64,000 bases of DNA from Myotis daubentonii (lineage: Eukaryota > Chordata > Mammalia > Chiroptera > Vespertilionidae). Shown piece after piece: positions 35,970 to 63,236 of the stretch (positions are counted from its first letter, which is position 1; each line of letters begins with the position of its first letter). The stretch is from positions 25,064,294-25,128,293 of the forward strand of contig NC_081844.1 in assembly GCF_963259705.1 (NCBI RefSeq), in the 5' to 3' direction. A program made the translations under genes and the position numbers. Under the pieces are notes generated by a model. It saw only the letters and a program-made list of their open reading frames with translations. It was not told the DNA's origin and made no database searches.

Positions 35970-36009
35970 ATGGGAGGCTCCCACCTCATCGTCTTTCACA
36001 TCCTACAAG
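35970..36009 (+). CDS. ADGRE2: ADGRE2-like exon 1, start of signal peptide
   Basis: This exon opens with ATG GGA GGC, giving MGG as in human ADGRE2 and ADGRE5, and continues with a short hydrophobic run (LIVFHIL). It ends in CAAG followed by gtgaga, a good donor, and leaves phase 1. I chose this start because the MGG opening is conserved and the Kozak context is strong. It joins exon 2 to complete the signal peptide. Confidence 0.8.
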
Positions 36010-48000: not shown

Positions 48001-51000
48001 GACACCCTACTTTAGTCATTTGGATTCTCCTGTTTTTGTTGGGTCTTGAGTGTTATTGTACCATTTGTGGATGGAGTCTCGTTTCAGGGTGTCTGATTAT
48101 GTGACTCACCTCTGACCCTGTTGTGCTAGCTTTTGAGGAGTTGCTGATTGAACAGCGCAGAATACAAAAAAAACAAAAAATAAAAATGAAGAAACAGAAC
48201 AAGAATGTACACAAGACCCTCATAGCCAAGACAAAAGTGACCACCAGAGAAAAGAGAATTAGGAAAGAGAAAACAGAGCAAGAATGATAGAAAGAAAAGG
48301 AAAGAAAAAATATGGAAAGAAAACATAACACAAAAAACAAATAAACAAAAAGCACAAACCAAAAACACCAAATAATAGGGGGAAGAACCGGTAAATACAG
48401 AACTTAAATAAAGAAAATAAGAACAAAGAATTAGAGGAATAGGATAAGGAACATGGTTTAGAATTAATGAGGGTGAAAAGAAATGAGAAGATAAGAAAAA
48501 AATTGAAAAGAAGAAGAGAGCAGATAGACCTAAATTAAGGAACTGAAATAAGAAAATAGGAGAAAGAGAGGAGAGAATAAAATTGAGTAGTCCAAAAAAA
48601 CGAGAAAAGAATATTGAATAGGAACAGGGAAGAGGAAAATTATATATATGAACAAAACAACAGAGACTAGAGTAATTACAAATCAGATGTGGATGAAAGC
48701 ACCTCTGGGCAGAACTCCTGCCACAAATCCACCCAATGTCACAACACCAAGGGCAGCTATGAGTGCCGCTGCAAGCCTGGCTGGAAGCCTATTCCTAGGT
48801 CCCCCAATGGCCCAAACAACATCGTTTGTGAAGGTTTGGAGTTCAGATTCTATAAGTATACATCTTCTTTACTTGGCTGAGCCATCTGAAAGGAAGCTGC
48901 CATAAGGGTTTTGGCAGAGAATGGGGCAGCATTATCAGCAATAGTGCATGCCCAGTGCAGGCAGTGAGGAGAGGGTGAACTGAGCCGGGCAGGGCTGAGT
49001 TTCAGATTCTGTTCTAATAAGGGCAGAAGTACAGCTCTGGGCGCAGCGATGCCACAGCCCACAGTCTCAACGCATGGGAGCTGTCAGTGTGGCAGCCACC
49101 CTGGTTAGAAGTCCATCGCAGGTCCTCCCCTAGTCCATCGTGACCTACAGTGTGGGACATATCTTTGTGATGACACTTGCACACACTGTCCTTTCCTCGT
49201 CCACCTTGCAGGGGCCCTCAGAGCTTAATGTGCTTTTAAGGTAGAAAATGTCACCACAAATTTGTATATGTTGGGCTAGGTGGCTTTTAGGCAGGGTTTT
49301 GTGGGGTCTCCAGAGTGTAATTTAAGAGAAAGGGGAGGAGCTTTGGGGTCAGGGAGTGGAGGGAGGCCTGACACTATCTCTGCTTTGTCCTCAGAGGTGG
49401 ATGAATGTACCTCGGGACAAAACTCCTGCCACAAATCCACCCGATGCCACAACACCGAGGGCAGCTATGAGTGCCGCTGCCGCCCTGGATGGAAGCTGAT
49501 GCCTGGGTCCCGAAACGGCCCACACAACACCGTCTGTGAAGGTTCGGAGTTCAGATCCCATAAATGGACCACACCTTCTTTATGTTGCTGAGCCATCTGA
49601 AAGGAAGCTGCCCTAATGGGCTTTGGTCGAGACGGGAGGCACCGTCAGCAATGGTGTGTGCCCAGTGCAGCAGTGAGGAGAGCGCACCTGGGCCAGGCGG
49701 GGCTGAGCTTCAGATTCTGTTCTAATAAGGGCAGGAGTGCAGCTCTGGGCCCAGCGGTGCCACAGCCCACAGCCCGCAGCCGCAGCACATGGGGAGCTAT
49801 CAGTGTGGCAGCCTCCCTGATTGGAAGTCTATCACAGGTCCTCCCCCAGTCCATCCTGCCCCACAGTTAGGGGACACAGCTTTGGAATGACAATGGCACA
49901 CACACACATAGCCCTGCCCTGTCCACCTTGCAGGGGTGCTATGAGCTTAATGTCCTTTTAAGGTTGGAAAATGTCACCACAACTTTGACTATGTCGGGCT
50001 AGGTGGCTATCAGGCAAGGTTTAGTGGAGTGTCCAAAGTGTACTCTAAGAGAAGGGGCAGGAGGGCTTATGTGCAGGGAATGCAGGGAGGGCCTGACACT
50101 CTCTCTGGTTTGTCCTCAGATGTGGATGAATGTACCTCAGGACAAAACTCCTGCCACAAATCCGCCCAATGCCACAACACCGAGGGCAGCTACATGTGCC
50201 GCTGCCGCCCTGGCTGGAAGCCGGTTCCTGGGTCCCCCAATGGCCCAAACAACACCATCTGTGAAGGTTCGGAGTTCAGATCCCATAAATGTACCACATC
50301 TTCTTTACTTTGCTGAGCCATCTGAAAGGCAGCTGCCATAACGGGCTTTGGTAGAGAGGAGGCAGCACTTTCAGCAACGGTGTGTGCCCAGTGTAGACAG
50401 TGAGAATAGGGGGACCTGGCCAGGCAGGGCTGAGCTCTGATTCTGCTCTAATAAGGGCAGAAATACAGCTCTGGACACAGTGCTGCCAGAGCCCACAGCC
50501 CACAGCCTCAGTGCATGGGAGCTATCAGTGTGGCAGCCATCAGAGGTTAGAAGGCCACTACAGGACCTCCCACAATCCATCCTGCCCCACAGAGTGGGTC
50601 ACATCTTTGGGATGAAACTTGCACACACACAGTCCTGCCTCATCCACCATGCAGGGGCGCTTTGAGCTTAATGTGCTTTTATGGTGGAAAACGTCATCAC
50701 AAATTAGTATGTGTCGGGCTAGGTGGCTTTTAGGCAGGGTTTAGTGGGGTGTCCGGAGTGTAATTCCAGAGAACTGGCAGGAGCTTTGCATGCAGGGAAT
50801 GCAGGTGGGCCTGACACTCTCTCCGGTTTGTCCTCAGATGTGAATGAATGTACCTCGGGGCAACACTCCTGCCGCCAATTAGCCATATGCCACAACACCG
50901 AGGGCAGCCATGAGTGCCACTGTCCCCCTGGCTGGAATCCGACTCCTAAATCCTCCCACGGCAAACAATACATCCTCTGTGAAGGTTCGGAGTTCAGATC

Positions 51001-51329
51001 CCATAAATGAAACACATCTTCTTTACTTGGCTGAGTCTTCTTAAAGGCAGCTGCCATAAGGAGCTCTGGCAGGAAGGGGCAGCACCATCAGCAATGGGGT
51101 GTGCCCAGTGCAGGCAGTGAGGAGAGGGCACTTGGGCCTGCAGGGCTGAGCTTCGGATTCTGTTCTAATAAGGACATGAGTGTCACTCTGGGCACAACGG
51201 TGCCACAGCCCACAGCCTCAGCACGTTGCAGCTATCAGTGTGTCAGCCTCCCTGGTTAGAAGAACATCACAGGTTCTCCCACAGTCCACCCTGCCCCACA
51301 GGTTGGGGTCCAGCTTTGGGATGACACTG

Positions 51330-51369
<40 letters not shown>

Positions 51370-52089
51370 CACACAACACAGTCCTGCCCTGTCCACCTTG
51401 CAGGGGTGCTCTGAGCTTATGGTGCTTCTACAGTAGAAAATGTCACCACAAGTTTGTATACTGTAGGACTAGGTGGCTGTTAGCAGGTTGTACTGGGGGT
51501 GTCCTCGGTGTACTTTGAGAGAAGGGGCAGGAGGGATGTGTGCAGAGAGTGGAGGGAGGGTCTGAAACTCTCTCTGATTTGTCCTCAGATGTGGATGAAT
51601 GCACCTCCGGGCAAAACTCCTGCCACAAATCTGCCCAATGCCACAACACGGAGGGCAGCTATGAGTGCCGCTGCCACCCTGGCTGGAAGCCGGTGCCTGG
51701 GTCCCCCAATGGTCCAAACAACACCATCTGTGAAGGTTCGGAGTTCAGATCCCATAAACGTACCTAGTCTTATTTATTTTCTCAGGCATCTTAAAGGAAG
51801 CTGCCAAAAGGCGCTTTGGCAGTGAAGGGGGCGCACTTTCAGCAATAGTTTGTGCCCAGCAGGCAGTGAGGAGAGGGGACCTGGGCTGAGCGGGCTGAGC
51901 TTCAGATTCTGTTCCAATAAGGGCAGGAGTGCAGCTCTGGATGAAGTGGTGCCAAGCCCACAGCCCACAGCCCACCACCTCAGCACGTGGGAGCTATTAG
52001 TGTGGCAGCCTCCCGGTTAGAAGTCCAAAACAGGTCCTCCCTCACTGCATCCTGCCCTACAGTAGGGGGAACCAGCTCTGGGATGACAC

Positions 52090-52132
<43 letters not shown>

Positions 52133-55100
52133 CCTGCCCTGTCCGCCTTACAGGGGCGCTCTGAGCTTATGGTGCTTTTACAGTGGGGAACGTCACCACA
52201 AGTTTGTATATGTTGGGCTAGGTGGGCTTTACACAAGGCTTAGTGGGGTGTCCAGAGTGTAATTTCAGAAAATGGGCAGGAGCTTTGCATGCACCGAGTT
52301 GAGATATCACCTGACGCTATCTCTGCTTTGTCCTCAGATGAGGATGAATGCACCTCCAGACAAATCTCCTGCCACAAATCCGCCCAATGCCACAACACCA
52401 AGGGCAGCTATGAGTGCCGCTGCCGCCCCGGCTGGAAGCCGATTCCTGGGTCCCCCAGTGGCCCACACAACACCGTCTGTGAAGGTTCGGAGTTCAGATC
52501 CCATAAATGAACCACATCTTCTTTACTTGGCTGAGCCATCTGAAAGGCAGCTGCCATAGGACTTTGGCAGAGAAAGGGCAACACTTTCAGCAATGATGTG
52601 TGCCCGGTGCAGACAGTGAGGAGATGGTGGGCTGGGTTTGGCAGGGCTAAGCTTAGATTCTGTTCTAATAAGGGCAGGAGTGCAGCTCTAGGCGCAGGGG
52701 TGCCACAGCCCACAGCCTCAGCACATGGGAGCTGCCAGTGTGGCAACCTCCCTGGTTACAAATTCATCACAGGTCCTCGCCCAGTCCCTCCTGCCCAACA
52801 GGTTAGGGCACATCTTAGGGATGACACTTGCACACACTCACACACAGTCCTGTCCTGTCCAACTTGGAGAGGCGCTCTAAGCTTATGGTGCTTCTACAGT
52901 GGAAAACGTCACAACAACTTTGTATACAGTTCCAACTAAGTAACTCTTAAGCAGGTTTTAGTGGGTGTCCAGAGTGTAATTTGAGAGAAGTGACAAGAGT
53001 TTTGCATGCAGGGAATGGAGGATGGACCTGACACTCTCTCTGGTTTGTCCACAGATGTGAATGAATGTACCTCAGGGCAAAATTCCTGCCACAAATCCAC
53101 CCAATGCCACAACACCGAGGGCAGCTATGAGTGCCGCTGCCGCCCTGGATGGAAGCTGATTCCTGGGTCCCCCAGTGGTCCACACAACACCACCTGTGAA
53201 GGTTCGAAGTTCGGTACCCATAAATGGACCACATCTTCTTTATGTTGCTGAGCCATCTGAAAGGAAGCTTCCCTAATGGGCTTTGGTTGAGACGGGCAGC
53301 ACCGTCAGCAATGGTGTGTGCCCAGTGCAGCAGTGAGGAGAGGGCACCTGGGCCAGGCGAGGCTGAGCTTCAGATTCTGTTCTAATAACAGGAGTGCAGC
53401 TCTGGGCCCAGCGGGGCCACAGCCCACAGCCCGCAGCCGCAGCACATGGGGAGCTATCAGTGTGGCAGCCTCCCTGATTGGAAGTCTAGCACAGGTCCTC
53501 CCCCAGTCCATCCTGCCCCACAGTTAGGGGACACAGCTTTGCGATGACACTGGCACACACACACATAGCCCTGCCCTGTCCCACTTGCAGGGGTGCTATG
53601 AGCTTAATGTCCTTTTAAGGTTGGAAAATGTCACCACAACTTTGAATATGTCGGGCTAGGTGGCTATCAGGCCCAGTTTAGTGGACTGTCCCAAGTGTAC
53701 TCTAAGAGAAGGGGCAGGAGGGCTTATGTGCAGGGAATGCAGGGAAGGCCTGACACTCTCTCTGGATTGTCTTCAGATGTGGATGAATGCACCTCCAGAC
53801 AAAACTCCTGCCACTATTCCGCCCAATGCCACAACACCGAGGGCAGCTATGAGTGCCGCTGCCGCCCTGGCTGGAAGCCGATACCTGGGTCCCCCAATGG
53901 CCCAAACTACACCGTCTGTGAAGGTTCAGAGCTCAGATCCCATAAATGTACCACATCTTCTTTACTTTGCTGAGCCACCTGAAAGGCAGGTGCCATAAGG
54001 AGCTTTGGCAGAGAAGGGGCAGCACTTTCAGCAACAGTGTGTGCCCAGTGCAGACAGTGAGGAGAGAGCACCTAGGCCAGGCAGGGCTGAGCTCTGATTC
54101 TGTTCTAATAAGGGCATGAGTGTCGCAACCTCCCTTGTTAGAAGTCCATCACAGGCCCTCCCATAGACTATCATGCCCCACAGTAGCGGTCAAGGGTTTG
54201 GGATGACATTCAGCCCTGCCCTGTCAACCTTACAGAGGTGCTCTGAACTTATGGAGCTTTTACAGTGGAATATGTATCCACCACTTTGTATATGTCGGGT
54301 TAGGTGGCTTTTAGGTAGGGATTAGCATTGTGTCCTTGGGGTAATTTGAAAGAATGTGCCAGAGCTTTGAGATCAGGGAGTGGAGAGAGGGCCCTACACT
54401 CTCTCTGGTTTGTCCTGAGATGTGAATGAATGTTCCTCGGGAGAAAACTCCTGCCACTTATCCACCCGATGCCACAACACCGAGGGCAGCTATGAGTGCC
54501 GCTGCCGCCCTGGCTGGAAGCCGATGCCTGGGTCCCCCAATGGTCCAAACAACACCATCTGTGAAGGTTCGGAGTTCAGATCCCATAAACGTACCTGGTC
54601 TTATTTATTTTCTCAGACATCTTAAAGGAAGCTGCCAAAAGGCACTTTGGCAGTGAAGGGGACGCACTTTCAGCAATAGTGTGTGCCCAGCAGGCAGTGA
54701 GGAGAGGGCACCTGGGCTGAGCAGGCTGAGCTTCAGATTCTGTTCCAATAAGGGCAGGAGTGCAGCTCTGGATGAAGTGGTGCCAAGCCAACAGCCCACA
54801 GCCCACCACCTCAGCACGTGGGAGCTATCAGTGTGGCAGCCTCCCCGGTTAAGAGGCCAACACAGGTCCTCCCACACTGCATCCTGCCCTACAGTAGGGG
54901 GAACCAGCTCTGGGATGACACTTACACACACACACACACACACACACAGTCCTGCCCTGTCCGCCTTACAGGGGTGCTCTGAGCGTATGGTGCTTTTACA
55001 GTGGAACATGTCACCACAAGTTTGTATATGTTGGGCTAGGTGGGCTTTAGGCAAGGTTTAGTGGGGTGTCCAGAGTTTAATTTCAGAAAATGGGCAGGAG

Positions 55101-56376
55101 CTATGCATGCAGTGAGTTGAGATATCGCCTGACACTTTCTGTGGTTTGTCCTCAGATGTGGATGAATGCACCTTTGGGCAAAACTCCTGCCACCAATCTG
55201 CCCAATGCCACAACACCGAGAGCAGCTATGAGTGCCGCTGCCGCCCTGGCTGGAAGCCGGTTCCTGGGTCCCCCAATGGCCTACACAACACCGTCTGTGA
55301 AGGTTCAGAGTTCAGATCCCATAAATGAACCACATCTTCTTTACTTGGCTGAGCCACCTTAAAGGGAGCTGCCATAAGGAGCTTTGGCAGAGAAAGGGCA
55401 ACACTTTCAGCAATGACGTGTGCCCAGTGCAGACAGTGAGGAGATGGTGGGCTGGGCTTGGCAGGGCTAAGCTTAGATTCTGTTCTAATAAGGGCAGGAG
55501 TGCAGCTCTAGGTGCAGGGGTGCCACAGCCCACAGCCTCAGCACATGGGAGCTGCCAGTGTGGCAACCTCCCTGGTTACAAATTCATCACAGGTCCTCGC
55601 GCAGTCCCTCCTGCCCAACAGGTTAGGGCACATCTTAGGGTTGACACTTGCACACACTCACACACAGTCCTGCCCTGTCCACCTTGCAGGGGCGCTCTAA
55701 GCTTATGGTGCTTCTACAGTGGCAAATGTCACAACAACTTTCTATACTGTTGGACTAGGTGGCTTTTAGGCAGGGTTTGGAGGGTGTCCAGAGTGTAATT
55801 TGAGAGACCTGGCAGGAGCTTTGTGTGCTGGCAATTCAGGGTGGTCCTCACAATCTCTCTGGTTTGTTCTCAGATGTGGATGAATGTACCTCAGGGCAAA
55901 ACTCCTGCCACAAATCCACCCAATGCCACAACACCGAGGGCAGCTATGAGTGCCGCTGCCGCCCTGGCTGGAAGCCGGTTCCTGTGACCCCCAATGGCCC
56001 GAACAACACTGTTTGTGAAGGTTCGGAGTTCAGATCCCATAAATGTACATCTTCTTTACTTGACTGAGTCTTCTTAAAGGCAGCTGCCATAAGGAGCTCT
56101 GGCAGGGAAGGGGCAGCACTTTCAGCAATGGTGTATGCCCAGCGCAGGCAGTGAGGAGAAGGCACCTGGGCCTGCAGGGCTGAGCTTCAGATTCTGTTCC
56201 AATAAGGGCATGAGCACAGCTCTGGATGAAGTGGTGCCAAGCCCACAGCCCACAGCCCACCACCTCAGCACGTGGGAGCTATCAGAGTGGCAGCCTCCAT
56301 GGTTAGAAGTCCATCACAGGTCCTGCTACAGTCCATCCTGTCCTAGACATAGAAGTACAGCTTTGGGATGACACTG

Positions 56377-56408
<32 letters not shown>

Positions 56409-57119
56409 CACACAACACAGTCCTGCCCTGTCCACCTTGCAGGGGTGCTCTGAGCTTATGGTGCTTCTACAGTGGAAAATGTTACCACAAGCTTGTATAC
56501 TGTAGGGCTAGGTGGCTGTTAAGCAGGTTGTACTGGGGGTGTCCTCGGTGTACTTTAAGAGAAAGGGCAGGAGGGTTGTGTGCAGAGAGTGGAGGGAGGG
56601 TCTGAAACTCTCTCTGATTTGTCCTCAGATGTGGATGAATGCACCTCCGGGCAAAACTCCTGCCACAAATCCACCCAATGCCACAACACGGAGGGCAGCT
56701 ATGAGTGCCACTGCAGCCCAGGCTGGAAGCCGATTCCTGGGTCCCCCAATGACCCACACAACACCGTCTGTGAAGGTTCGGAGTTCAGATCCCATAAATG
56801 AACCTCGAATTCTCTATGTTTCTGGGCCATCTGAAAGGAAGCTGCCATAGGACTTTGGCAGAGAAAGGGCAACACTTTCAGCAATGGCGTGTGCCCGGCG
56901 CAGGCAGTGAGGAGATGGTGGGCTGGGCTGGGCAGGGCTGAGCTTAGATTCTGTTCTAATTAGGGCATGAGCGCAGCTCTGGGCACAGCGATGTCACAGC
57001 CCACAGCCTCAGCACGTGGGAGCTCTCAGAGTGGAAGCCTCCCTGCTTAGAAGTCCATCACAGGTCCTCCCCCAATCCATCCTCCCCACAAATGGAGGCA
57101 CAGCTTTGGGATGACACTG

Positions 57120-57160
<41 letters not shown>

Positions 57161-59437
57161 TTTGCCCTCTCCACCTTGCAGGGGTGCTCTAAGCTTATGG
57201 TGCTTCTATAGTGGAAAATGTCACCACAACTTTGCATACTGTCAGGCCTGGTGGATTTAAGCAGGGAGTAGTGGGGGTGTCATCGGTGTCTGTTTTCAGA
57301 AGGGGAAGGAAGCTTTATGTGCAGGGAGTAGAGGGAGGGCCTGACACTCTCTCTGGTTTGTCCTCAGATGTGGATGAATGTACCTCGAGGCAATACTCCT
57401 GCCACCCATCCACCCAATGCCACAACACCGAGGGCAGCTATGAGTGCCGCTGCCGCCCTGGCTGGAAGCCGGTTCCTGGGTCCCCCAATGGCCCAAACAA
57501 CACTGTCTGTGAAGGTTCGCAGTTCAGATCCCATAAATCAGTGATTCTCAACCTTCTGGCTTTTTAAATACAGTTCCTCATGTTGTGACGCAACCATAAA
57601 ATTTTCATTGCTACTTCATAACTGTCATGTTGCTACTGTTATGAATCATAATGTAAATATCTGATATGCAGGATGGTCTTAGGCGACCCCTGTGAAAGGG
57701 TTGTTTGACCGCCAAAGGGGTCGTGACCCACAGGTTGAGAACCGCTGCCATAAATGAACCACATTTATTTACTGGGCTGAGCCATCTTAAAGGTAGCTGC
57801 CAGTAGGATCCTTGGTAGAGAAGGGGCAGCACTTCCAGCAATGGTGTGTGCCCAGTGCAGGCAGTGAGGAGAGGGCACCTGGCCCAGGCAGGGCTGAGCT
57901 TCAGAAATGTTCTAATAAGGGGATGAGTGTGGCTACCTCCCTTGTTAGAAGTCCATCACAGGCCCTCCCATAGACTATCCTACCCCACAGTAGGGGTCAA
58001 GGGTTTGGGATGACATTCAGCCCTGCCCTGTCCACCTTGCTGGGGTGCTCTGACTTTATGGAGCTTTTACAGTGGAATATGTAACCACAAGTTTGTATAT
58101 GTCGGGCTAGGTGGGTTTTAGGTAGGGTTTATCATTGTGTCCTGGGTGTAATTTGAAAGAATGTGTCGGAGCTTTGAGATCAGGGAGTGGAGAGAGAGCC
58201 TGACACTCTCTCTGGTTTGTCCTCAGATGTGGATGAATGTACCTCGGGGCAACACTCCTGCCACAAATCCACCCGATGCCACAACACCGAGGGCAGCTAT
58301 GAGTGCCGCTGCCGCCCTGGCTGGAAGCCGGTTCCTGGGACCCCCAATGGTCCAAACAACACCGTCTGTGAAGGTTTGGAGTTCAGATCCCATAAAAGAA
58401 CCACATCTTCTTTACTTGGCTGAGCCATCTGAAAGGCAGCTGCCATAAGGAGCTTTGGCAGAAAAGGGGCAGCACTTTCAGCAATGGTGTGTGCCCAGTG
58501 CAGGCAGTGAGGAGAGGGGACCGGGGCCGGGCAGGGCTGAGCTGAGATTCTGTTCTAATAAGGGCAGGAGTGCAGCTCTAGGTGCAGGGGTGCCACAGCC
58601 CACAGCCTCAGCACACGGTAGCTATGAGTGTGGCAGCCTTTCTGTTTATAAGTCCATCACAGATCCTCCCCAGTCAATCCTGCCCCACAGGTGGGGACAC
58701 AGCTTTGGAATGACACTGGCACACACAGTCCTGCCCTGTTCACCTTGCAAGGGTGCTCTGAGCTTGTGGTCCTCTTACAGTGGAAAAGGTCACCCAACTT
58801 TGTATACTGTCCGGGTTGGTGGCTGTTAAGCAGGGTGTTGTGGGGGTGTCCTCGGTTTACTTTGAGAGAAGAGGCAGAAGGGTTGTGTGCAGGGAGTAGA
58901 AGGAGAGCCTGACACTCTCTCTGGTTTGTCCTCAGATGTGGATGAATGCACCTCTGGGCGAAACTCCTGCCACAAATCCACCCGATGCCACAACACCGAG
59001 GGCAGCTATGAGTGCCGCTGCCGCCCTGGCTGGATGCCAATTCCTGGGTCCCCCAATGGCCCACACAACACCGTCTGTGAAGGTTCGGAGTTCAGATCCC
59101 ATAAACGTACCTTGTCTTATTTATTTTCTCAGGCGTCTTAAAGGAAGCTGCCAAAAGGCGCTTTGGCAGTGAAGGGGGCGCACTTTCAGCAATAGTGTGT
59201 GCCCAGCAGGCAGTGAGGAGAGGGCACCTGGGCTGAGCGGGCTGAGCTTCAGATTCTGTTCCAATAAGGGCAGGAGTGCAGCTCTGGATGAAGTGGTGCC
59301 AAGCCAACAGCACACAGCCCACCACCTCAGCACGTGGGAGCTATCAGTGTGGCAGCCTCCCCGGTTAGAAGTCCAACACAGGTCCTCCCTCACTGCATCC
59401 TGCCCTACAGTAGGGGGAACCACCTCTGGGATGACAC

Positions 59438-59489
<52 letters not shown>

Positions 59490-62281
59490 TCCTGCCCTGT
59501 CACCCTTAGAGGCGCCCTGAGCTCATGGGGCTTTTACAGTGTAAAATGTCACCACAACTTTGTATATGTGGGGCCAGGTGGGTTATAGGCAGGATTTAGT
59601 GGGGTGTCTTAAGTGTAATTTGAAAAAATGGGCAGGAGCATTACATGCAGGGAGCGGGGGGAGGGCCTGACACTCTCTCTGGTTTCTTCTCAGACGTTGA
59701 TGAATGTACCTCAGGGCAAAACTCCTGCCACAAATCCGCCCAATGCCACAACACGGAGGGCAGCTATGAGTGCCACTGCCGCCCTGGCTGGAAGTCGGTT
59801 CCTGGGTCCTCCAGTGGCCCACACCACACCGTCTGTGAAGGTTCGGAGTTCAGATCCCATAAACTTACCACATCTTCTTTACTTTGCTGAGCCACCTTAA
59901 ATGCAGCTGCCATAAGGGGCTTTGGCAGAAAAGGGGCAGCACTTTCTGCAATGGTGGTGCCCAGTGCAGGCAGTGAGGAGAGGAGACCCTGGGCCAGGCA
60001 GGGCTGTGCTTTGGAATCTGTTCTAATAAGGGCATGAGCGCAGCTCTGGGCACAGTGGTGCCACATCCCACTGCCACAGCACGTGGGAACTATCAGTGTG
60101 TCAGCCTCCCTGGTTAGAAATCCATCACAGGTCCTCCCTTACTCTCGCACCCCACAGTTGGGGAACACAGCTTTGGGATGACACAAAGCCCTGCCCTGTC
60201 ACCCTTAGAGGCGCCCTGAGCTCATGGGGCTTTTACAGTGTAAAATGTCACCACAACTTTGTATATGTGGGGCTAGGTGGGTTATAGGCAGGATTTAGTG
60301 GGGTGTCTTAAGTGTAATTTGAAAAAACGGGCAGGAGCATTACATGCAGGGAGCGGGAGGGAGGGCCTGACACTCTCTCTGGTTTCTCCTCAGACGTGGA
60401 TGAATGTACTTCATGGCAAAACTCCTGCCACAAATCCGCCCAATGCCACAACACGGAGGGCAGCTATGAGTGCCGCTGCTGCCCTGGCTGGAAGCCGGTT
60501 CCTGGGTCCCCCAGTGGCCCACATCACACCGTCTGTGAAGGTTCAGAGTTCAGATCCCATAAATGTACCACACCTTCTTTATGCTGCTGGGTCATCCTAA
60601 AGGCAGCTGCCATAAGGCGCTTTGGCAGAGACGAGGCAGCCCTTTCAGCAATGGTGTGTGCCCAGTGCAGGCAGTGAGGAGAGGGCACCGGGGCCAGGCA
60701 GGGATGAGCCTCTGAATCTGTTCTAATAAGGGCATGAGTGCAGCTCTGTACCAGTGGTAACACAGCCCACAGCCCGCAGCTCACAGCCTCAGCACGTGGG
60801 AGCTATCCGTGTGGTATCCTTCCTCGTTAGATGTCCATCACAGGTCCTGTCACAGTCCATCCTAGCGCACAGGTGAACAGTTTTTGAAAGGTTGGGGATT
60901 GGGCCAGGTCACACAGAACAGACTCAAGGTTTAGTGTAGTCAAAATAATATTTATTCATGGCACCTGGGTGCAGGTGGACCGATCTCGAGAAAGAGTCAG
61001 TGCTGCATGGAAAGGGGGCAGGCTTTTTATGCAGGTGGGGAGAGCTGCAGGCCTTGGTGGACACTCATGTCTATACGGCACTACAGGCGGCTTCTGTTTA
61101 TACAATATCAGGGAGGGCCATGGCAGCTTCTGCTGGTGCATATCTGGAGCGTGCTGCCAGTGGTTGTTTTATGGCCTTGCTCTTTGCCCTTCTGTCAGGC
61201 GTCCTTCCTCCTAGGGGCTGTGCAAGGGTTATGGTCTCGGAAGTTCCTGTAATATATTCATTCAAAGGGGGCATGTTTCTGCAACTCTTGGGCTTGCCGA
61301 ATGAGTTTTCCTTTAACATTTGTTCGATTTTGTAAGGTCAAGCCTTGTGCTCTCCAGTTAGCTGTTTCAGCTTTAGCATGTCACTTGCACACACACAGTC
61401 CTGTCCTGTCCATCTTGTAGGGGCACTCTGAGTTTATGGTGCTTTCACAGTGGAAAATGGCACCACTATTATGTATCCTGTTGGGCTAGGTGGCTGGTGA
61501 GTGGGGCGTAGTGGGGTGTCCTCGGTGTGAATTGCTAAGGGATTTGAGAGAAGGAGCAGGAAGGATGTGAGCAAGGATTGGAGGGAGGGCCTCACATTGT
61601 CTCTGGCTTTGTCCTCAGATGTGAATGAATGTACCTCAGGGAAAAACTCCTGCCACAAATCCACCCAATGCCACAACACCAAGGGCAGCCATGAGTGCCG
61701 CTGCAGGTCTGGCTGGAAGCCGGTTCCTGGGTCCCCCAATGGCCCAAACAACACCGTCTGTGAAGAAGGTTCGGAGTTCAGATCCCACATTCCCAAAGAC
61801 CCACAGCTCAAACCACCTGATCACATATTCACCAGCAGCCACAGGAACTCAGCACATTGAATGCTGTGGGTGCCCTGCTGGGCCAGGCTTCCATTCTTTG
61901 AGACTAAATGGGAAAAGATCTGGGGGTCCTGCAGAAGGAGCTGGGGTACCAAGGGGAAGGCTCCTGGGGACCCCAGGCAACAGCTAATTACTAACTGGGT
62001 CAAAGGTATCTAATATCTCACAACCTGTACCTCTGTGGGGGCTGACCTGCTGTGGGTCAGGCCTCTGCACACTTCCCATAACCCCGTGACCGCCACTCAG
62101 GGATGTGCAGTCAGCCCGGGTCATCACCTCCAGCCAAGGCGTTGGCGGGGGGGGGGGGGGGGGGGGGGGGGGACTGGACACAGGAAGGGGGTGGGGCACA
62201 GAGAGGGGAGGGGCCCAGATTCCTGAATAAACAAAGGACTACTCAGTGTGAAAGTAGGACCTGACCCTAGATCCTGCCTCC

Positions 62282-62366
<85 letters not shown>

Positions 62367-63236
62367 TCACACACCTAATGAACTGCTGTTCTGTCCCCTG
62401 CAGAGATTTCCTTCCTTACCTGGAACCCGCCCCCTGGAATCAAGAGCCAGGTGAGTGACTCCAGCTGGGACCAGAAGGCAAGGTCCCTCCATTCATCCCA
62501 CCATCCACCCATTTCCCCACGCTCCCTGACCCATGCATGAAGCTCTCTAAGGCCTCATCTCCTTTCCCCAGAGTCTCTCCCACTTCTTTGAAAGAATTCA
62601 GGACCTGCTCAGAAACTTCAAGTCTGCCTCGGCCCAGGACACCATCCAGGTAAGGACAGGACCCAGGGGAGGCAGGTGGAGGCATCCCATAGAGACCAGA
62701 GGAAGCCTTGGTCTGAAAGGAGACCGACCCCAACACAATGGCGCCCTGTTCTGAGGCCCCGCTGTCCCAGGGTGGGTGGGAAGAGCAGTCCAAGTATTTG
62801 TACTCACTCTTAGACGCACTAACTAACACCTTTCCTCTTGTTCTGGCCGCTGAACTTGCATTGTCCTTGGTAGTCTTGACCAGGGATTGAACTCTGAGTG
62901 GCGGATTTCACTAGCAAAGACCCAGGGAATCCTATCAGTACCACCTTTGTCCCCAAATAGACAGGCTCTAGGGTCTGTTCTCAGAAGCTGAGTGGGCAGA
63001 ATCTTCCTGAAGCTTCTCTGGCACAAGATCCACTGGTTCTGTGTCCCCATCCCCCCAGGACATCATACAGGAGGTGGATAATCTGCTGGAGAACCCGGGG
63101 GACCTGGATACTCTGCCCCATTCAGAGCAGCACTGTGTGGCCACTAACCTGCTCACTGGCCAGGAGCACGTCCTGAGAGAGCTGAGCAAGGCCTTGCCCA
63201 ATGGGCCACTGACCTTCAGGACAGCTGCAGGAACAG
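35970..63236 (+). CDS. ADGRE2: Adhesion GPCR, EGF-TM7 family (ADGRE2/EMR2-like) with expanded EGF array; 3' part outside window
   Basis: This is the visible part of an adhesion GPCR: signal peptide, EGF1, calcium-binding EGF2, a tandem run of 17 intact EGF4-like exons, then the first three stalk exons. Joined exons total 3178 bases (1059 codons plus one base) with every junction phase-compatible and no stop. The N-terminal MGG start, the EGF1 order of cysteines and the stalk text ([20 protein letters not shown]) match ADGRE2 better than ADGRE5, recalled from the human proteins. Known family role: myeloid surface receptors that bind matrix glycosaminoglycans and sense mechanical pull through an autocleaved GAIN domain; that domain and the 7TM helices are not in the window. 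Human-type EGF3 and EGF5 exons are not seen. Exons are listed separately. The orthologue name is an inference; a bat-specific ADGRE paralogue is possible. Confidence 0.88.
36620..36810 (+). mobile_element. SPIN-type hAT, internally deleted, in intron 1
   Basis: It opens cagtggttctcaatctgtgg and closes gttgagaaccact. It lacks the central part found in the 14790 copy. A clean 8-bp duplication is not visible, so it may be older. Confidence 0.82.
36890..37116 (+). mobile_element. VES SINE in intron 1
   Basis: tRNA-like head (ggtttggctcagtggacaga, gttccattccggtcaag) with a CT-rich and A-rich tail. A 16-bp duplication flanks it: aagaaat(a/g)acatttgg at 36874-36889 and 37117-37132. Confidence 0.92.
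37133..39677 (+). other. Intron 1, largely unique sequence
   Basis: No exon or recognised complete mobile element is seen. There is a short (TTG)n/(ATT)n tract at about 37488-37528 and a long CT-rich stretch at about 38560-38910. Open frames here lack any family resemblance. Confidence 0.5.
39678..39728 (+). CDS. ADGRE2: ADGRE2-like exon 2, signal peptide core
   Basis: The exon lies between a ctctgttccag acceptor and a gtgagt donor and is 51 bases, phase 1 to phase 1. It encodes [18 protein letters not shown], a hydrophobic core followed by a polar stretch that should carry the signal-peptidase site. The layout matches the second half of the human signal peptide. Confidence 0.8.
39903..40028 (+). 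CDS. ADGRE2: ADGRE2-like exon 3, EGF-like domain 1
   Basis: A 126-base phase 1-1 exon behind a cccacag acceptor and before a gtacag donor. It encodes an atypical EGF domain with six cysteines: [11 protein letters not shown], then ACRCDPGF, then ETCE. The order and spacing equal human EGF1, which has no calcium-binding D-x-D-E start. In ADGRE5 this domain helps contact CD55. It is single copy, unlike the array exons. Confidence 0.85.
40217..40739 (-). mobile_element. Solo LTR in intron 3 of the ADGRE2-like gene
   Basis: The block starts TGTTGTATC and ends TGCTTCA, with gaac on both sides (40213-40216, 40740-40743), consistent with a 4-bp duplication. It holds tctttattgtg, an antisense polyadenylation signal. 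Confidence 0.6.
41048..41203 (+). CDS. ADGRE2: ADGRE2-like exon 4, calcium-binding EGF domain 2
   Basis: A 156-base phase 1-1 exon (52 codons) between attccag and gtaaga. It starts DIDEC, the calcium-binding EGF signature, has [10 protein letters not shown] (the Asp/Asn beta-hydroxylation pattern), and ends SENTCQ exactly as human EGF2 does. The next coding exon is 7.5 kb away, behind the Helitron and L1 insertions, and is an EGF4-type exon, so the human EGF3 exon has no counterpart here. Confidence 0.85.
41448..41655 (-). mobile_element. HeliBat Helitron 3' end fragment in intron 4
   Basis: It starts ctagaggcctagtgcatgaa, the reverse complement of a HeliBat 3' end with its terminal hairpin. 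The 5' part is missing. Sequence at about 41664-41740 resembles a degraded hAT-type repeat. Confidence 0.75.
42623..42847 (-). mobile_element. VES SINE inside the L1
   Basis: The minus-strand head has tRNA-like boxes and the plus strand ends ccactgagccaaactggtta. It is flanked by a perfect 13-bp duplication, cccaacactattt (42610-42622, 42848-42860). Confidence 0.92.
44857..46153 (+). mobile_element. HeliBat Helitron with internal minisatellite
   Basis: It starts TCCTATCTAATAAAAG after an A and ends GGGCCCCTAG before a T, with a hairpin just before the end. The interior (about 45340-46040) is a run of variant units built on GGCCTGGGCAGGGG. Same family as 19558-20756 and 22958-23618. It sits in L1 sequence, and no target duplication is seen, as expected for Helitrons. 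Confidence 0.92.
46836..47620 (-). pseudogene. L1 ORF1 remnant (intron 4 copy)
   Basis: Two minus-strand frames carry ORF1 text: the RNA-binding part with [10 protein letters not shown] and [13 protein letters not shown] (47144-47461), and the C-terminal part with [13 protein letters not shown] (about 47030-47123). Frameshifts separate them, so no ORF1 protein can be made. Confidence 0.75.
48687..48833 (+). pseudogene. Array unit 1: broken EGF exon
   Basis: This is a 147-base copy of the array exon with its reading frame open, but the first cysteine codon is serine (DVDESTSG), so one disulfide cannot form. Homology to the repeat unit starts only at the CAG just before it. The pyrimidine-rich acceptor tract is replaced by A-rich sequence next to the antisense L1. 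The donor is gtttgg. It is probably an exon remnant that is skipped; weak use cannot be ruled out. Confidence 0.7.
49395..49541 (+). CDS. ADGRE2: Array unit 2: calcium-binding EGF exon
   Basis: First intact exon of the array, 49 codons, phase 1-1, acceptor gtcctcag. The first base changes the usual D to E (EVDEC). Cysteines are all present. It has [14 protein letters not shown] rather than the usual [14 protein letters not shown], so the Asn-Asn-Thr glycosylation site is absent. The exon and its downstream intron resemble unit 7, which suggests a block duplication. Confidence 0.85.
50120..50266 (+). CDS. ADGRE2: Array unit 3: calcium-binding EGF exon
   Basis: An intact 49-codon exon with DVDEC, six cysteines and a PNNT sequon. 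It is unusual in having M for E before the fourth cysteine (SYMC). Its upstream intron is very close to that of unit 8, including GAGGGCTTATGTGCAGGGAA, so units 2-3 and 7-8 look like copies of one block. Confidence 0.86.
50838..50984 (+). CDS. ADGRE2: Array unit 4: divergent calcium-binding EGF exon
   Basis: This is the most diverged intact member. It begins DVNEC and has six cysteines, but carries [25 protein letters not shown] and YILC in place of the shared text. The sequon is lost. The frame and both splice sites are kept, so it is probably functional and older than, or less homogenised than, its neighbours. Downstream flank resembles that of unit 11. Confidence 0.84.
51589..51735 (+). 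CDS. ADGRE2: Array unit 5: calcium-binding EGF exon
   Basis: An intact exon with DVDEC, PNNT sequon and H for R in CRCHPGW. The upstream intron, with tgtactgggggtgtcctcgg, is nearly the same as that of unit 12. The downstream flank (tcttatttattttctcagg) is shared with units 9 and 15 only. Confidence 0.86.
52338..52484 (+). CDS. ADGRE2: Array unit 6: calcium-binding EGF exon
   Basis: An intact 49-codon exon starting DEDEC (V to E at the second residue) with SRQISC in the first loop and NTKGSYEC. It belongs to the PHNT class without the sequon. Its upstream and downstream introns resemble those around unit 10. Confidence 0.85.
53055..53201 (+). CDS. ADGRE2: Array unit 7: calcium-binding EGF exon
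   Basis: An intact exon with DVNEC and acceptor gtccacag. It ends PHNTTCE, so the sequon is re-created one residue later as N-T-T. The donor is gttcga, a variant of the array's usual gttcgg. Like unit 2 it has WKL, supporting shared ancestry. Confidence 0.85.
53777..53923 (+). CDS. ADGRE2: Array unit 8: calcium-binding EGF exon
   Basis: An intact exon with [14 protein letters not shown] and NYT in place of NNT, which still makes a sequon. Acceptor is gtcttcag and donor gttcag. The intron that follows is the shortest in the array because roughly 80 bases are missing from its middle; unit 13's intron lacks the same part. Confidence 0.85.
54420..54566 (+). CDS. ADGRE2: Array unit 9: calcium-binding EGF exon with weak acceptor
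   Basis: The exon is intact ([15 protein letters not shown], six cysteines, PNNT), but its acceptor reads gtcctgag rather than gtcctcag: position -3 is G, the least favoured base. The AG itself remains. Skipping of this exon would be expected more often than for its neighbours. Confidence 0.82.
55156..55302 (+). CDS. ADGRE2: Array unit 10: calcium-binding EGF exon
   Basis: An intact exon with DVDECTFGQ and NTESSYEC, where the usual glycine before SYEC is serine. It is PNGLHNT, so the sequon is absent. Its downstream intron is almost the same as that of unit 6. Confidence 0.85.
55874..56020 (+). CDS. ADGRE2: Array unit 11: calcium-binding EGF exon
   Basis: An intact exon with DVDEC and [12 protein letters not shown], where GS is VT. 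The sequon is present. Acceptor is gttctcag. The flank after the donor (tgagtcttcttaaaggcagc) is shared with unit 4, pairing blocks 4-5 and 11-12. Confidence 0.86.
56629..56775 (+). CDS. ADGRE2: Array unit 12: calcium-binding EGF exon
   Basis: An intact exon with DVDEC, CHCSPGW and PNDPHNT, so no sequon. Upstream sequence matches unit 5 and downstream sequence matches unit 6, so the unit looks like a crossover product between two array types. Confidence 0.85.
57368..57514 (+). CDS. ADGRE2: Array unit 13: calcium-binding EGF exon next to a SPIN insertion
   Basis: An intact exon with [15 protein letters not shown] and PNNT. Donor is gttcgc. A SPIN-type element sits only 24 bases after the exon end, beginning at 57539, so the intron's first bases are kept but its proximal part is displaced. 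Confidence 0.85.
57539..57747 (-). mobile_element. SPIN-type hAT element inside the EGF array
   Basis: Ends are cagtgattctcaacc and gttgagaaccgctg, the SPIN inverted repeats. It is flanked by a perfect 8-bp target duplication, ccataaat (57531-57538 and 57748-57755), which is also the array consensus at this site. The element is non-autonomous and shorter than the copy at 14790. Confidence 0.92.
58227..58373 (+). CDS. ADGRE2: Array unit 14: calcium-binding EGF exon
   Basis: An intact exon with [12 protein letters not shown] and [12 protein letters not shown], sequon present. Donor is gtttgg. The upstream intron matches that of unit 9, so 13-14 and 8-9 form another pair of blocks. Confidence 0.86.
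58936..59082 (+). CDS. ADGRE2: Array unit 15: calcium-binding EGF exon
   Basis: An intact exon with [12 protein letters not shown] and GWMPIPG (K to M). PHNT class. The flank after the donor matches units 5 and 9 and includes a long CA tract further on (about 59438-59487). Confidence 0.86.
59694..59840 (+). CDS. ADGRE2: Array unit 16: calcium-binding EGF exon
   Basis: An intact exon with [21 protein letters not shown] and PHHT, so no sequon. The acceptor is tttcttctcag. About 190 bases before this exon are almost identical to those before unit 17, marking the youngest duplication in the array. Confidence 0.86.
60394..60540 (+). CDS. ADGRE2: Array unit 17: EGF exon with an extra cysteine
   Basis: The exon is open and spliceable, with [12 protein letters not shown] and PHHT. 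CRCRPGW has become CRCCPGW, giving seven cysteines. An unpaired thiol could misfold the domain or pair with another chain. It is a near copy of unit 16. Confidence 0.82.
60885..61369 (-). mobile_element. Solo LTR between array units 17 and 18
   Basis: A 485-base block begins TG and ends CA, is absent from all other units, and has an antisense AATAAA-like site near 60948. The flanks gtttt and gcttt suit a 5-bp duplication with one change. No retroviral coding sequence is present. Confidence 0.65.
61619..61768 (+). CDS. ADGRE2: Array unit 18: last EGF exon, one codon longer
   Basis: The last array exon is 150 bases because GAA is duplicated before the donor (TGTGAAGAAG then gttcgg), giving VCEE. 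It reads [20 protein letters not shown] and CRSGW, with a PNNT sequon. The unit is 1.2 kb from unit 17 because a solo LTR lies between them. It joins the stalk exon at 62404 in phase 1. Confidence 0.85.
62147..62172 (+). repeat. 26-base poly-G run
   Basis: It lies in the intron between array unit 18 and stalk exon a. Runs this long can form quadruplexes and are also prone to sequencing error. Confidence 0.85.
62284..62363. repeat. (TC)n(AC)n microsatellite
   Basis: About 22 TC units run into about 17 AC units, ending 40 bases before the acceptor of stalk exon a. Confidence 0.9.
62404..62450 (+). CDS. ADGRE2: ADGRE2-like stalk exon a
   Basis: A 47-base exon, phase 1 to 0, between cccctgcag and gtgagt. 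It encodes [16 protein letters not shown], matching the human DMTFSTWTPPPGVHSQ that follows the last EGF of ADGRE2 and ADGRE5. It opens the serine- and threonine-rich stalk. Confidence 0.88.
62572..62649 (+). CDS. ADGRE2: ADGRE2-like stalk exon b
   Basis: A 78-base phase 0-0 exon between tttccccag and gtaagg. It encodes [20 protein letters not shown] and a further QDTIQ, matching human TLSRFFDKVQDLGRD and NTIQ in the same place. Confidence 0.88.
63059..63236 (+). CDS. ADGRE2: ADGRE2-like stalk exon c, GC donor
   Basis: A 178-base exon, phase 0 to 1, behind cccccccag-type sequence. It encodes [20 protein letters not shown] and continues QHCVATNLL and [11 protein letters not shown] to AAGT. 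The text agrees with human ADGRE2 (GDLETLP, QHCVASHLL, PAGTE) and less with ADGRE5. The expected end after ACAG meets gcaagt, a classic GC-AG donor; a GT donor four bases later would shift the phase. Confidence 0.86.

Follow-up and report, generated by a model that had tools for sequence, protein, structure and literature searches.

The window studied here, a 64,000-nucleotide stretch of Myotis daubentonii DNA (NC_081844.1), contains a long tandem series of EGF exons, which raises the question of whether these exons belong to a working receptor gene and, if so, how so many of them came to stand in a row. Our main reading, to which we give a probability of roughly 0.6, is that the locus is an open ADGRE2-type gene, present in the assembly as two near-identical tandem copies (A, which begins in the window, and B), whose array would have arisen by EGF4/EGF5 crossing-over and would form a long, splice-adjustable, glycosaminoglycan (GAG)-binding stalk.

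Eighteen tandem EGF-exon copies lie between 48676 and 61765 on the plus strand, spaced 643 to 859 b start to start, with 1,225 b ahead of the last unit. The exon measures 147 b in units 1 to 17 and 150 b in unit 18, and AG and GT ends and phase 1-1 are found in 18/18. At least six cysteines are present in 17 of the 18 units, with seven in unit 17, as an initial annotation of the window had stated; unit 1 has five, with Ser in place of Cys1, and no pyrimidine tract is present at its acceptor. That annotation had placed seventeen units at 48687..61768. Our survey of splice sites and cysteines confirmed seventeen sound array exons there and 19 EGF domains in all, but the units number 18, the first being degenerate. 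A PROSITE-like calcium-binding EGF pattern is fitted by 15/18; the exceptions are units 1, 4 and 18, and in units 4 and 18 the conserved aromatic residue of the pattern is missing. When unit 1 is left out, the exons joined within the window sum to 3,178 b, which gives the annotated 1,059 codons, but the start given for the array, 48687, is that of unit 1. Each EGF of copies A and B occupies its own phase 1-1 exon. We are highly confident of the following anatomy, that of an ADGRE2-type gene with an EGF array (window coordinates).

35970..36009, +, exon 1, signal peptide start, phase-1 end; ATG, GT donor; identical in copy B
39678..39728, +, exon 2, remainder of signal peptide; AG/GT, in frame
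39903..40028, +, EGF1 exon; six-Cys pattern, AG/GT, phase 1-1; aligns to EMR2/ADGRE5 EGF1 (PDB 2bo2, 9mqr)
41048..41203, +, EGF2 exon, calcium-binding type; aligns to EMR2/ADGRE5
48687..48833, +, array unit 1, degenerate, likely remnant of the original EGF4; Cys1 to Ser, poor acceptor
49395..49541, +, array unit 2, EGF5/EGF4 hybrid exon
50120..50266, +, array unit 3, hybrid exon
50838..50984, +, array unit 4, hybrid exon of a divergent type common to M. yumanensis P0003
51589..51735, +, array unit 5, hybrid exon
52338..52484, +, array unit 6, hybrid exon
53055..53201, +, array unit 7, hybrid exon
53777..53923, +, array unit 8, hybrid exon
54420..54566, +, array unit 9, hybrid exon
55156..55302, +, array unit 10, hybrid exon
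55874..56020, +, array unit 11, hybrid exon
56629..56775, +, array unit 12, hybrid exon
57368..57514, +, array unit 13, hybrid exon; short (55 b) EGF4-type match in the downstream intron
58227..58373, +, array unit 14, hybrid exon
58936..59082, +, array unit 15, hybrid exon
59694..59840, +, array unit 16, hybrid exon
60394..60540, +, array unit 17, hybrid exon, seven cysteines
61619..61768, +, array unit 18, 150 b, original EGF5 exon by both flanking introns
62404..62450, +, stalk exon 1; AG/GT, in frame; common to copy B and M-prime
62572..62649, +, stalk exon 2; AG/GT, in frame
63059..63236, +, stalk exon 3; GC donor (gcaagt), likewise in copy B and M-prime

Exon 1 was compared with the N-terminus of the Myotis yumanensis protein P0003, MGGSHLSAFHILQ, and exon 2 matches ALCVLLTLLEDGPQNTR of the same protein with one change. 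No EGF3 exon was found between 41203 and 48700. The GPS and 7TM exons of copy A lie downstream, beyond the window, and are present and open; joined with this DNA, the copy is stop-free to the GPS site and a full 7TM domain, and its predicted product is ∼1,530 aa long with 19 EGF domains. Copy B, once joined, likewise stays open across GPS and 7TM. The last coding exon was not found by a search of 80000-90000 with one short word.

Ten Pfam families were reported for copy A (E of 1e-3 or below), among them EGF_CA in 18 stretches and 7tm_2 in a single stretch covering profile positions 3-250 of 250 (E, 1e-60). GAIN PF16489 is absent from these ten and likewise from the Pfam matches of M. yumanensis P0003 and P0004. 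GPS PF01825 scores above cut-off, without a stop, at contig positions 25133054 (A; E, 3e-14) and 25300287 (B), in a frame that contains CSHLSS with the cleavage motif HL/S, and the best PDB chains for the 7TM part are ADGRE1 and ADGRE5. In a 27-row tree of the stalk-to-C-tail part, A and B cluster with E2-like proteins of M. yumanensis and M. lucifugus (100/98), a group from which the E1 and E3 rows are excluded. The four E5 rows sit on a long branch that arises inside the non-bat E2 part, which leaves the separation of E2 from E5 not cleanly resolved. By these comparisons, A and B are classed as ADGRE2-type EGF-TM7 receptor genes, grouping with ADGRE2 and not with ADGRE1 or ADGRE3; the annotated ADGRE2-like receptor gene is thus upheld by the tree grouping, the GPS and the 7TM domain.

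The array exons have been under past purifying selection. Neutral evolution of the 16 hybrid units was simulated 2,000 times on the tree given by their flanking introns. A mean of 0.16/16 units (maximum, 7) stayed open with six cysteines, compared with 16/16 observed; the soundness of the array exons is therefore not due to chance. For openness alone, all 16 units were kept in 1/2,000 runs. A second neutral simulation covered 15/16 hybrid units, unit 13 being left out because its downstream intron is mostly not alignable and its branch is long. The nonsynonymous/synonymous ratio was 1.66 observed versus 3.30 ± 0.68 simulated, with 0/1,000 runs as low. Both simulations started from the consensus of the present-day exons. 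The dN/dS on the array exons, a calculation that the initial annotation had proposed, is ∼0.51 among units 2-18 of array A and 0.57 among units 2-22 of B.

A pseudogene in decay or under relaxed constraint, its array driven by repeats, is a very improbable reading of the gene. Such decay could account for the degenerate unit 1, the one GC donor and a dN/dS of 0.5 that is not near zero, but the 34 joined exons of A and 38 of B run without a stop or frameshift ahead of the C-tail exon, none of the 2,000 simulations left more than 7/16 exons sound, and the low nonsynonymous/synonymous ratio was never reproduced. Simple decay was rejected on both neutral simulations, and these, together with the open joined frame, bear out the earlier view of selection rather than decay. 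An accompanying caution that the array might be an assembly artefact is answered in part: the units are too different, with introns ∼22% apart between them, for simple read collapse.

The flanking introns point to how the array was built. Upstream introns of units 2-17 are EGF5-type in 16/16 (97 to 235 bits; EGF4-type, at most 38 bits), downstream introns are EGF4-type in 16/16 (56 to 242 bits; EGF5-type, at most 36 bits), and unit 18 matches EGF5 introns on both sides, a pattern that repeated unequal crossing-over would explain. We consider growth of the array through such EGF4/EGF5 exon exchange highly probable. Judged by its introns, unit 18 is the original EGF5 exon, and unit 1 is likely a remnant of the original EGF4 exon. 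An array built from EGF4 alone was ruled out, since the introns are those of a hybrid with an EGF5 start and an EGF4 end. The array consensus is identical to human ADGRE5 EGF4 at 39/49 residues and to its EGF5 at 33/49; with the bat modules the counts are 42/49 for EGF5 and 37/49 for EGF4. The locus holds a clear sequence record of domain-number change in EGF-TM7 receptors, in which one intron-exon unit, with the upstream intron of EGF5 and the downstream intron of EGF4 as its bounds, would have been repeated via exchange between two similar exons.

Approximately 167 kb further on lies copy B, which is near-identical and has 22 array units, 21 of them sound, giving 23 sound EGF domains in total versus 19 in A. 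This copy is missing from the initial annotation. Units 3-6 of A are a recombinant of two four-unit blocks of B, matching B3-6 as far as column 1228 and B7-10 beginning at column 1384; a single informative site, 2690, departs from this pattern. Unit number has therefore changed recently, and a gain or loss step of EGF units is visible between the copies. A count of 50/2,924 bases for the divergence of the two B blocks makes them look too old, its first 212 columns being an alignment of two different introns, and the site-by-site table was used in its place. The pre-array coding sequence (head) is the divergent part between the copies, with 9 differences in 372 b, 7 of them nonsynonymous, versus 10 in 2,646 b of array. 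No donor for the divergent EGF1 patch was found among L003, L006, L007, L029 and the M-prime stretch, because the only match, M-prime, stands at 82-85%. The coding sequences of A and B differ by 6 synonymous and 18 nonsynonymous changes when B3-6 is omitted, and by 9 and 20 when B7-10 is; these numbers are too small to reveal present-day constraint.

A and B could instead be two haplotypes of one gene set in series by the assembler, 18 versus 22 units being an allelic length polymorphism, and this has an appreciable, though minority, chance of being right. In window positions 1-30 kb, 13/15 two-kb bins differ by 0-3 bases, and the gene stretches compared show mostly 0-8 differences per kb, divergence that fits heterozygosity as well as recent duplication. 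However, there is no N within the 264 kb examined, divergent patches reach 34/999 and 55/1000, and the neighbor genes M and M-prime are 1-7% apart per 200 columns over 3.1 kb; the M/M-prime and patch divergence exceeds what simple haplotypes usually show.

In the proposed mechanism, transcripts containing the array would encode a long, calcium-stiffened stalk, whose length could be set by in-frame skipping of the phase 1-1 exons. The array donors, of the form GTT(C/T)(A/G)N, are far from the donor consensus GTRAGT. The modules may retain the dermatan/chondroitin sulfate binding of human EGF4, in which case many weak sites would provide avidity and pull would be passed on to the GAIN/7TM part. 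For E2 and E5, dermatan sulfate is given as a ligand of EGF-like domain 4 in a review table (PMC13197933), but the analogy with EGF4 function is weakened because the array consensus is nearer bat EGF5 than bat EGF4. Multivalent GAG binding by the array, proposed by this analogy, is accordingly put forward tentatively, at somewhat less than even odds.

Two other roles were weighed; these and the other alternatives are not mutually exclusive, and the odds given to them do not sum to one. The array might be a spacer that binds no ligand itself and holds the EGF1-EGF2 head, which in ADGRE5 is the part that binds CD55, well above the cell coat. The closeness of the consensus to bat EGF5 and the divergence of the head (9/372 b versus 10/2,646 b) are consistent with a spacer, as are passages on the extended, rod-like EGF structures of EMR2 and CD97, whose joints have calcium and a Gly/aromatic contact (PMC8191316), but human EGF4 of the same family is listed as binding dermatan sulfate (PMC13197933), the consensus has 39/49 residues in common with it, and we think a pure spacer unlikely. 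Somewhat less doubtful is that the array is mostly skipped, so that few EGF exons would reach mature transcripts, as in human ADGRE2, and the surplus would serve as a stock of alternative cassettes. Phase 1-1 and a nonconsensus donor are common to all array exons, and published passages describe EGF-exon skipping of ADGRE1 in every species studied (PMC6174849) and EMR2 isoforms with 2-5 EGF domains (PMC3596701). Against this, 16/16 hybrid exons are sound and constrained, which suggests that each was translated often enough to be kept.

Returning to a translated, GAG-binding stalk, we offer one broader conjecture, which we hold doubtful: in Myotis, the length of this immune receptor may be a fast-evolving, copy-number-variable trait, in which unequal exchange within an ADGRE2 paralogue would keep adding and removing EGF4/5 hybrids, tuning the reach and GAG avidity of a mechanosensitive receptor, and the EGF1 head would diversify separately. 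Sound array units so far number 6, 9, 17 and 21 in Myotis, with 18 versus 22 exons between the A/B copies or alleles. If the array is expressed, it would provide a natural length series for testing reach versus avidity in ligand binding and in force-triggered adhesion-GPCR signaling.

Human ADGRE2 (EMR2) and ADGRE5 (CD97) have EGF1-2, EGF4/5-type modules, GPS and 7TM in common with the genes described here, whose EGFs align with PDB 2bo2, 7do4 and 9mqr and whose 7TM part aligns with ADGRE1 and ADGRE5 chains. Unlike the human receptors, described with five EGF domains at most (PMC3596701), A and B lack EGF3 and carry the EGF4/5 type in sound form 17 or 21 times, which would make their stalk much longer than that of human ADGRE2. 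The human maximum of five is a size range, not a family-defining trait. Also close are the array-bearing M. yumanensis ADGRE2-like NCBI models P0003 (1135 aa) and P0004 (1126 aa), which belong to the same stalk-to-C-tail clade (100/98) and have the same EGF module type; P0003 also carries the odd unit 4-type module (44/49 residues alike). By cysteine pattern they have 11 and 8 EGF domains, a count that undercounts slightly (18 in A and 22 in B, with 19 and 23 sound). It was applied to 120 of 1,024 homologue matches listed, among which 11 was the maximum, and to nine chosen proteins; a second listing gave 120 of 4,671 matches, and candidates in both were 0.55-1.75 times the query length. Four paralogous EMR2/ADGRE2 sequences are described in Myotis lucifugus, in passages that do not mention an EGF array (PMC8584163). 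Among the papers listed on the topic, titles and the starts of abstracts show no bat EGF array, and no paper was found jointly on ADGRE2, bats and EGF.

A large EGF array, each domain on a single exon, is also found in the EGF-TM7 receptor ADGRE1 (EMR1, F4/80) of pig and sheep. Passages of Waddell et al. (2018; PMC6174849) infer 14 EGF domains in ruminants, horse, cat and dog, and predicted ADGRE1 proteins have 27 (pig P0158), 22 (pig P0171) and 20 (sheep P0222) EGF_CA stretches. The earlier claim that no described EGF-TM7 receptor is this large therefore fails, and we rejected "largest EGF-TM7 known" for our genes. That claim had been made by comparison with ADGRE2 and ADGRE5 and omitted ADGRE1. 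ADGRE1 is a different paralogue with different modules; pig P0158 repeats a three-domain block, whereas here a single EGF4/5-type module is repeated. What is new, by sequence comparison, is an EGF4/5-derived expansion in an ADGRE2-type gene, above any other E2/E5-type protein counted. Taken with the separate expansion of ADGRE1 in pig and sheep, this suggests at least two origins of long EGF arrays within the family, and such repeated origin fits selection on myeloid-cell receptors.

With 200 kb downstream of the window added, gene A, the ADGRE2-like receptor, was joined manually and its splice ends were checked. The window covers bases 25064294 to 25128293 of contig C6. In window-based coordinates, which continue past the window's end, the gene is made up as follows.

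From 35970, inside the window: two signal-peptide exons, EGF1, EGF2, 18 array exons and three stalk exons
Past the window, to ~80.1 kb: two further stalk exons, the GPS exon, five 7TM exons and the C-tail exon (end uncertain)

The array of A consists of 18 tandem EGF exons, each of 147 b except the last (150 b), all preceded by AG, followed by GT, and starting and ending in phase 1. Six cysteines are encoded by 17 of the 18 units, counting unit 17 with seven; the degenerate unit 1 has five, and its acceptor is without a pyrimidine tract. The 1,059-codon open frame of the initial annotation is reproduced, as a sum of exon lengths, when unit 1 is omitted. The complete frame stays open until it meets a stop in the C-tail exon and encodes 1,580 aa (1,531 aa if unit 1 is left out). 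Pfam analysis of a 1,510-aa version returned 18 EGF_CA stretches, GPS, and a full 7tm_2 domain; the Pfam GAIN model was not reached in this version. A GC-AG intron at 63236/63237 (donor gcaagt) is common to A, to its near-identical downstream copy B, and to M-prime, an ordinary five-EGF gene located between them. N-glycosylation sequons lie close to the last cysteine in only 9 of the 18 A units (3, 5, 7, 8, 9, 11, 13, 14, and 18), so glycan sites along the stalk appear to be switched on and off by small substitutions.

The flanking introns indicate how the array grew. Upstream introns of all 16 hybrid (EGF5/EGF4) units, 2 to 17, resemble the pre-EGF5 intron of M-prime and of the gene at 24.02 Mb on the same contig, C6 (97 to 235 bits, versus ≤38 bits for the pre-EGF4 intron), whereas their downstream introns match the post-EGF4 intron (56 to 242 bits, versus ≤36 bits for post-EGF5). 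The introns of unit 18, the original EGF5, match EGF5 on both sides, and those of unit 1 show an EGF4 match downstream and no match upstream. Because no EGF3 exon was found between EGF2 and the array of A, these matches give the order EGF1-EGF2-(remnant EGF4)-16 hybrids-EGF5. This intron pattern is what repeated crossing-over between EGF4 and EGF5 exons yields; such crossing-over would have built the array, each event adding one hybrid exon and one copy of the EGF4-EGF5 intron.

Per-site differences among units 2 to 17 were 0.22 to 0.23 in introns and 0.113 in exons. Across units 2 to 18, dS was 0.205, near the intron divergence, and dN was 0.104, for a ratio of 0.51 from 136 nonindependent pairs. 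Neutral simulation on the intron tree left a mean of 0.16 of 16 exons open with six cysteines (maximum of 7 in 2,000 runs), compared with 16 of 16 observed. When the ill-aligned unit 13 was left out, 1.2 of 15 exons remained sound (maximum of 6 in 1,000 runs) versus 15 observed, and the simulated nonsynonymous/synonymous ratio was 3.30 ± 0.68 versus an observed 1.66, which no simulation reached. Judged from these comparisons, the array exons were under constraint in the past, and to that extent the proposal of selection instead of decay is borne out. Coding changes between A and B (6 synonymous and 18 nonsynonymous with B3-6 omitted; 9 and 20 with B7-10 omitted) tell little about present selection.

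In this assembly, B belongs to what is probably a long duplication. In a self-comparison, positions 1 to at least 103.7 kb were repeated 164.3 kb downstream, the match reaching the end of the sequence compared; the offset becomes 167.2 kb past the array and 160.3 kb past a ~7-kb stretch near 94 to 101 kb without a counterpart in the second copy. The array of B counts 22 exons, of which 21 encode at least six cysteines, and the B frame is open over 1,776 aa with unit 1 (1,727 aa without). The copies differ by 0 to 8 differences per kb over 30 to 38 and 52.5 to 74.5 kb, outside a divergent patch, and mostly by 0 to 3 per 2 kb over 1 to 30 kb, the exceptions being two 2-kb bins at 18 to 22 kb with 11 and 13. 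Within the arrays, A7-18 and B11-22 show 16 differences in 9,278 aligned bases, and A3-6 and B3-6 show 33 in 2,927. A units 3 to 6 switch partner at the informative sites: they agree with B3-6 as far as alignment column 1228 and, starting at column 1384, with B7-10, except at a single site (column 2690). The most parsimonious account is a 22-unit ancestor from which A dropped one four-unit block through unequal exchange; a gain of the block in B is possible and would need more steps. The divergent patch (37750-40000; B side, C6 ~25.2664-25.2686 Mb) is bounded; its difference counts are 34 and 55 per kb (4 to 19 per 250 b), and it spans signal-peptide exon 2 together with the EGF1 exon. It would reflect either gene conversion by a paralogue not sampled here or long-standing diversity in the ligand-binding head. 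The EGF3-EGF5 stretches of M-prime and of M, its copy located before A, differ by 1 to 7% per 200 columns over 3.1 kb, in contrast to the long duplication blocks within the window, which are mostly ~99% identical.

GPS matches along C6 at 24.03, 24.20, 24.28, 24.38, 24.44, 24.98, 25.04, 25.13 (A), 25.21 (M-prime), 25.30 (B), and 25.37 Mb are taken as an ADGRE cluster, in which we looked at A, B, M-prime, and parts of the genes at 24.02, 24.98, and 25.03 Mb. GPS and 7TM matches at C6:24438116-24438244 and C6:24427505-24427762 are interrupted by stops (TGA; TAA), possibly marking an ADGRE pseudogene. In a genome-wide search with the array consensus, 40 of 49 candidates were scored, and all 40 lay on C6: 36 inside the two arrays and 4 in neighboring genes, three of which are EGF5 exons by their flanking introns (the fourth is at C6:25363340).

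A tree with 27 rows, built on the stalk-to-C-tail part, gave Myotis proteins as the nearest relatives of this genome's ADGRE genes, so the source is probably a Myotis or a close vespertilionid bat. A and B group with Myotis yumanensis P0003 and P0004 and M. lucifugus P0005 (support, 100/98), and M-prime groups with M. myotis P0006 (99/96). The E2/E5 part of the tree is unreliable, since its four E5 rows fall, on a long branch, inside the nonbat E2 rows. Array units number nine in P0003 and six in P0004; the unusual unit-4 module type is common to A and P0003 (44/49 identical), so the array is likely at least partly older than those species. ADGRE2 paralogues are already known at the gene level, four being reported for M. 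lucifugus in PMC8584163, and literature searches on bats and ADGRE2/EGF found no paper on the array.

What might such a stalk do? Dermatan sulfate is a ligand of EGF4 in human ADGRE2 and ADGRE5, and CD55 is a ligand of EGF1, 2, and 5 in ADGRE5 (PMC13197933, table; PMC8191316). The array consensus is nearer EGF4 among human domains (39/49, versus 33/49 for EGF5) but nearer EGF5 among bat domains (42/49, versus 37/49 for EGF4), which keeps inheritance of a glycosaminoglycan site by the array modules at the level of the plausible. At ~2.7 to 3 nm per EGF domain, the 19 domains of A would reach some 50 to 57 nm, and a pure spacer role is a serious rival to ligand binding. EGF structures of EMR2 are rod-like and extended, and calcium sits at their joints (PMC8191316). 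Because all array exons are symmetric, any set of them could be skipped in frame, and skipping of ADGRE1 EGF exons has been reported in other species (PMC6174849); that the array exons are mostly skipped cassettes is a serious rival as well. Our leading, still tentative reading, at a probability of about 0.4, is a long, splice-adjustable, multivalent glycosaminoglycan-binding stalk.

The initial annotation knew of no EGF-TM7 receptor this large, a view that fails against database predictions of ADGRE1: EGF_CA stretches number 27 in pig isoform X6 (P0158; 1,903 aa), 22 in pig P0171, and 20 in sheep X1 (P0222). P0158 differs in repeating a near-identical three-domain block, which could be a true recent amplification or an assembly effect. 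In published work, RNA-Seq led to an inferred 14 EGF domains for ADGRE1 of ruminants and horse, and mapping led to the same number for cat and dog (PMC6174849). Nonvertebrate predicted proteins carry, by cysteine pattern, 32 (P0135, Rhopilema), 26 (P0154, Ciona), and 27 (P0186, Xenia) EGF-like domains, with a 7tm_2 domain from precomputed annotation that was directly scanned in P0186 only. Among the 120 homologous proteins listed, the maximum was 11 EGF domains by cysteine pattern, and the array is therefore the largest among the E2/E5-type proteins counted here.
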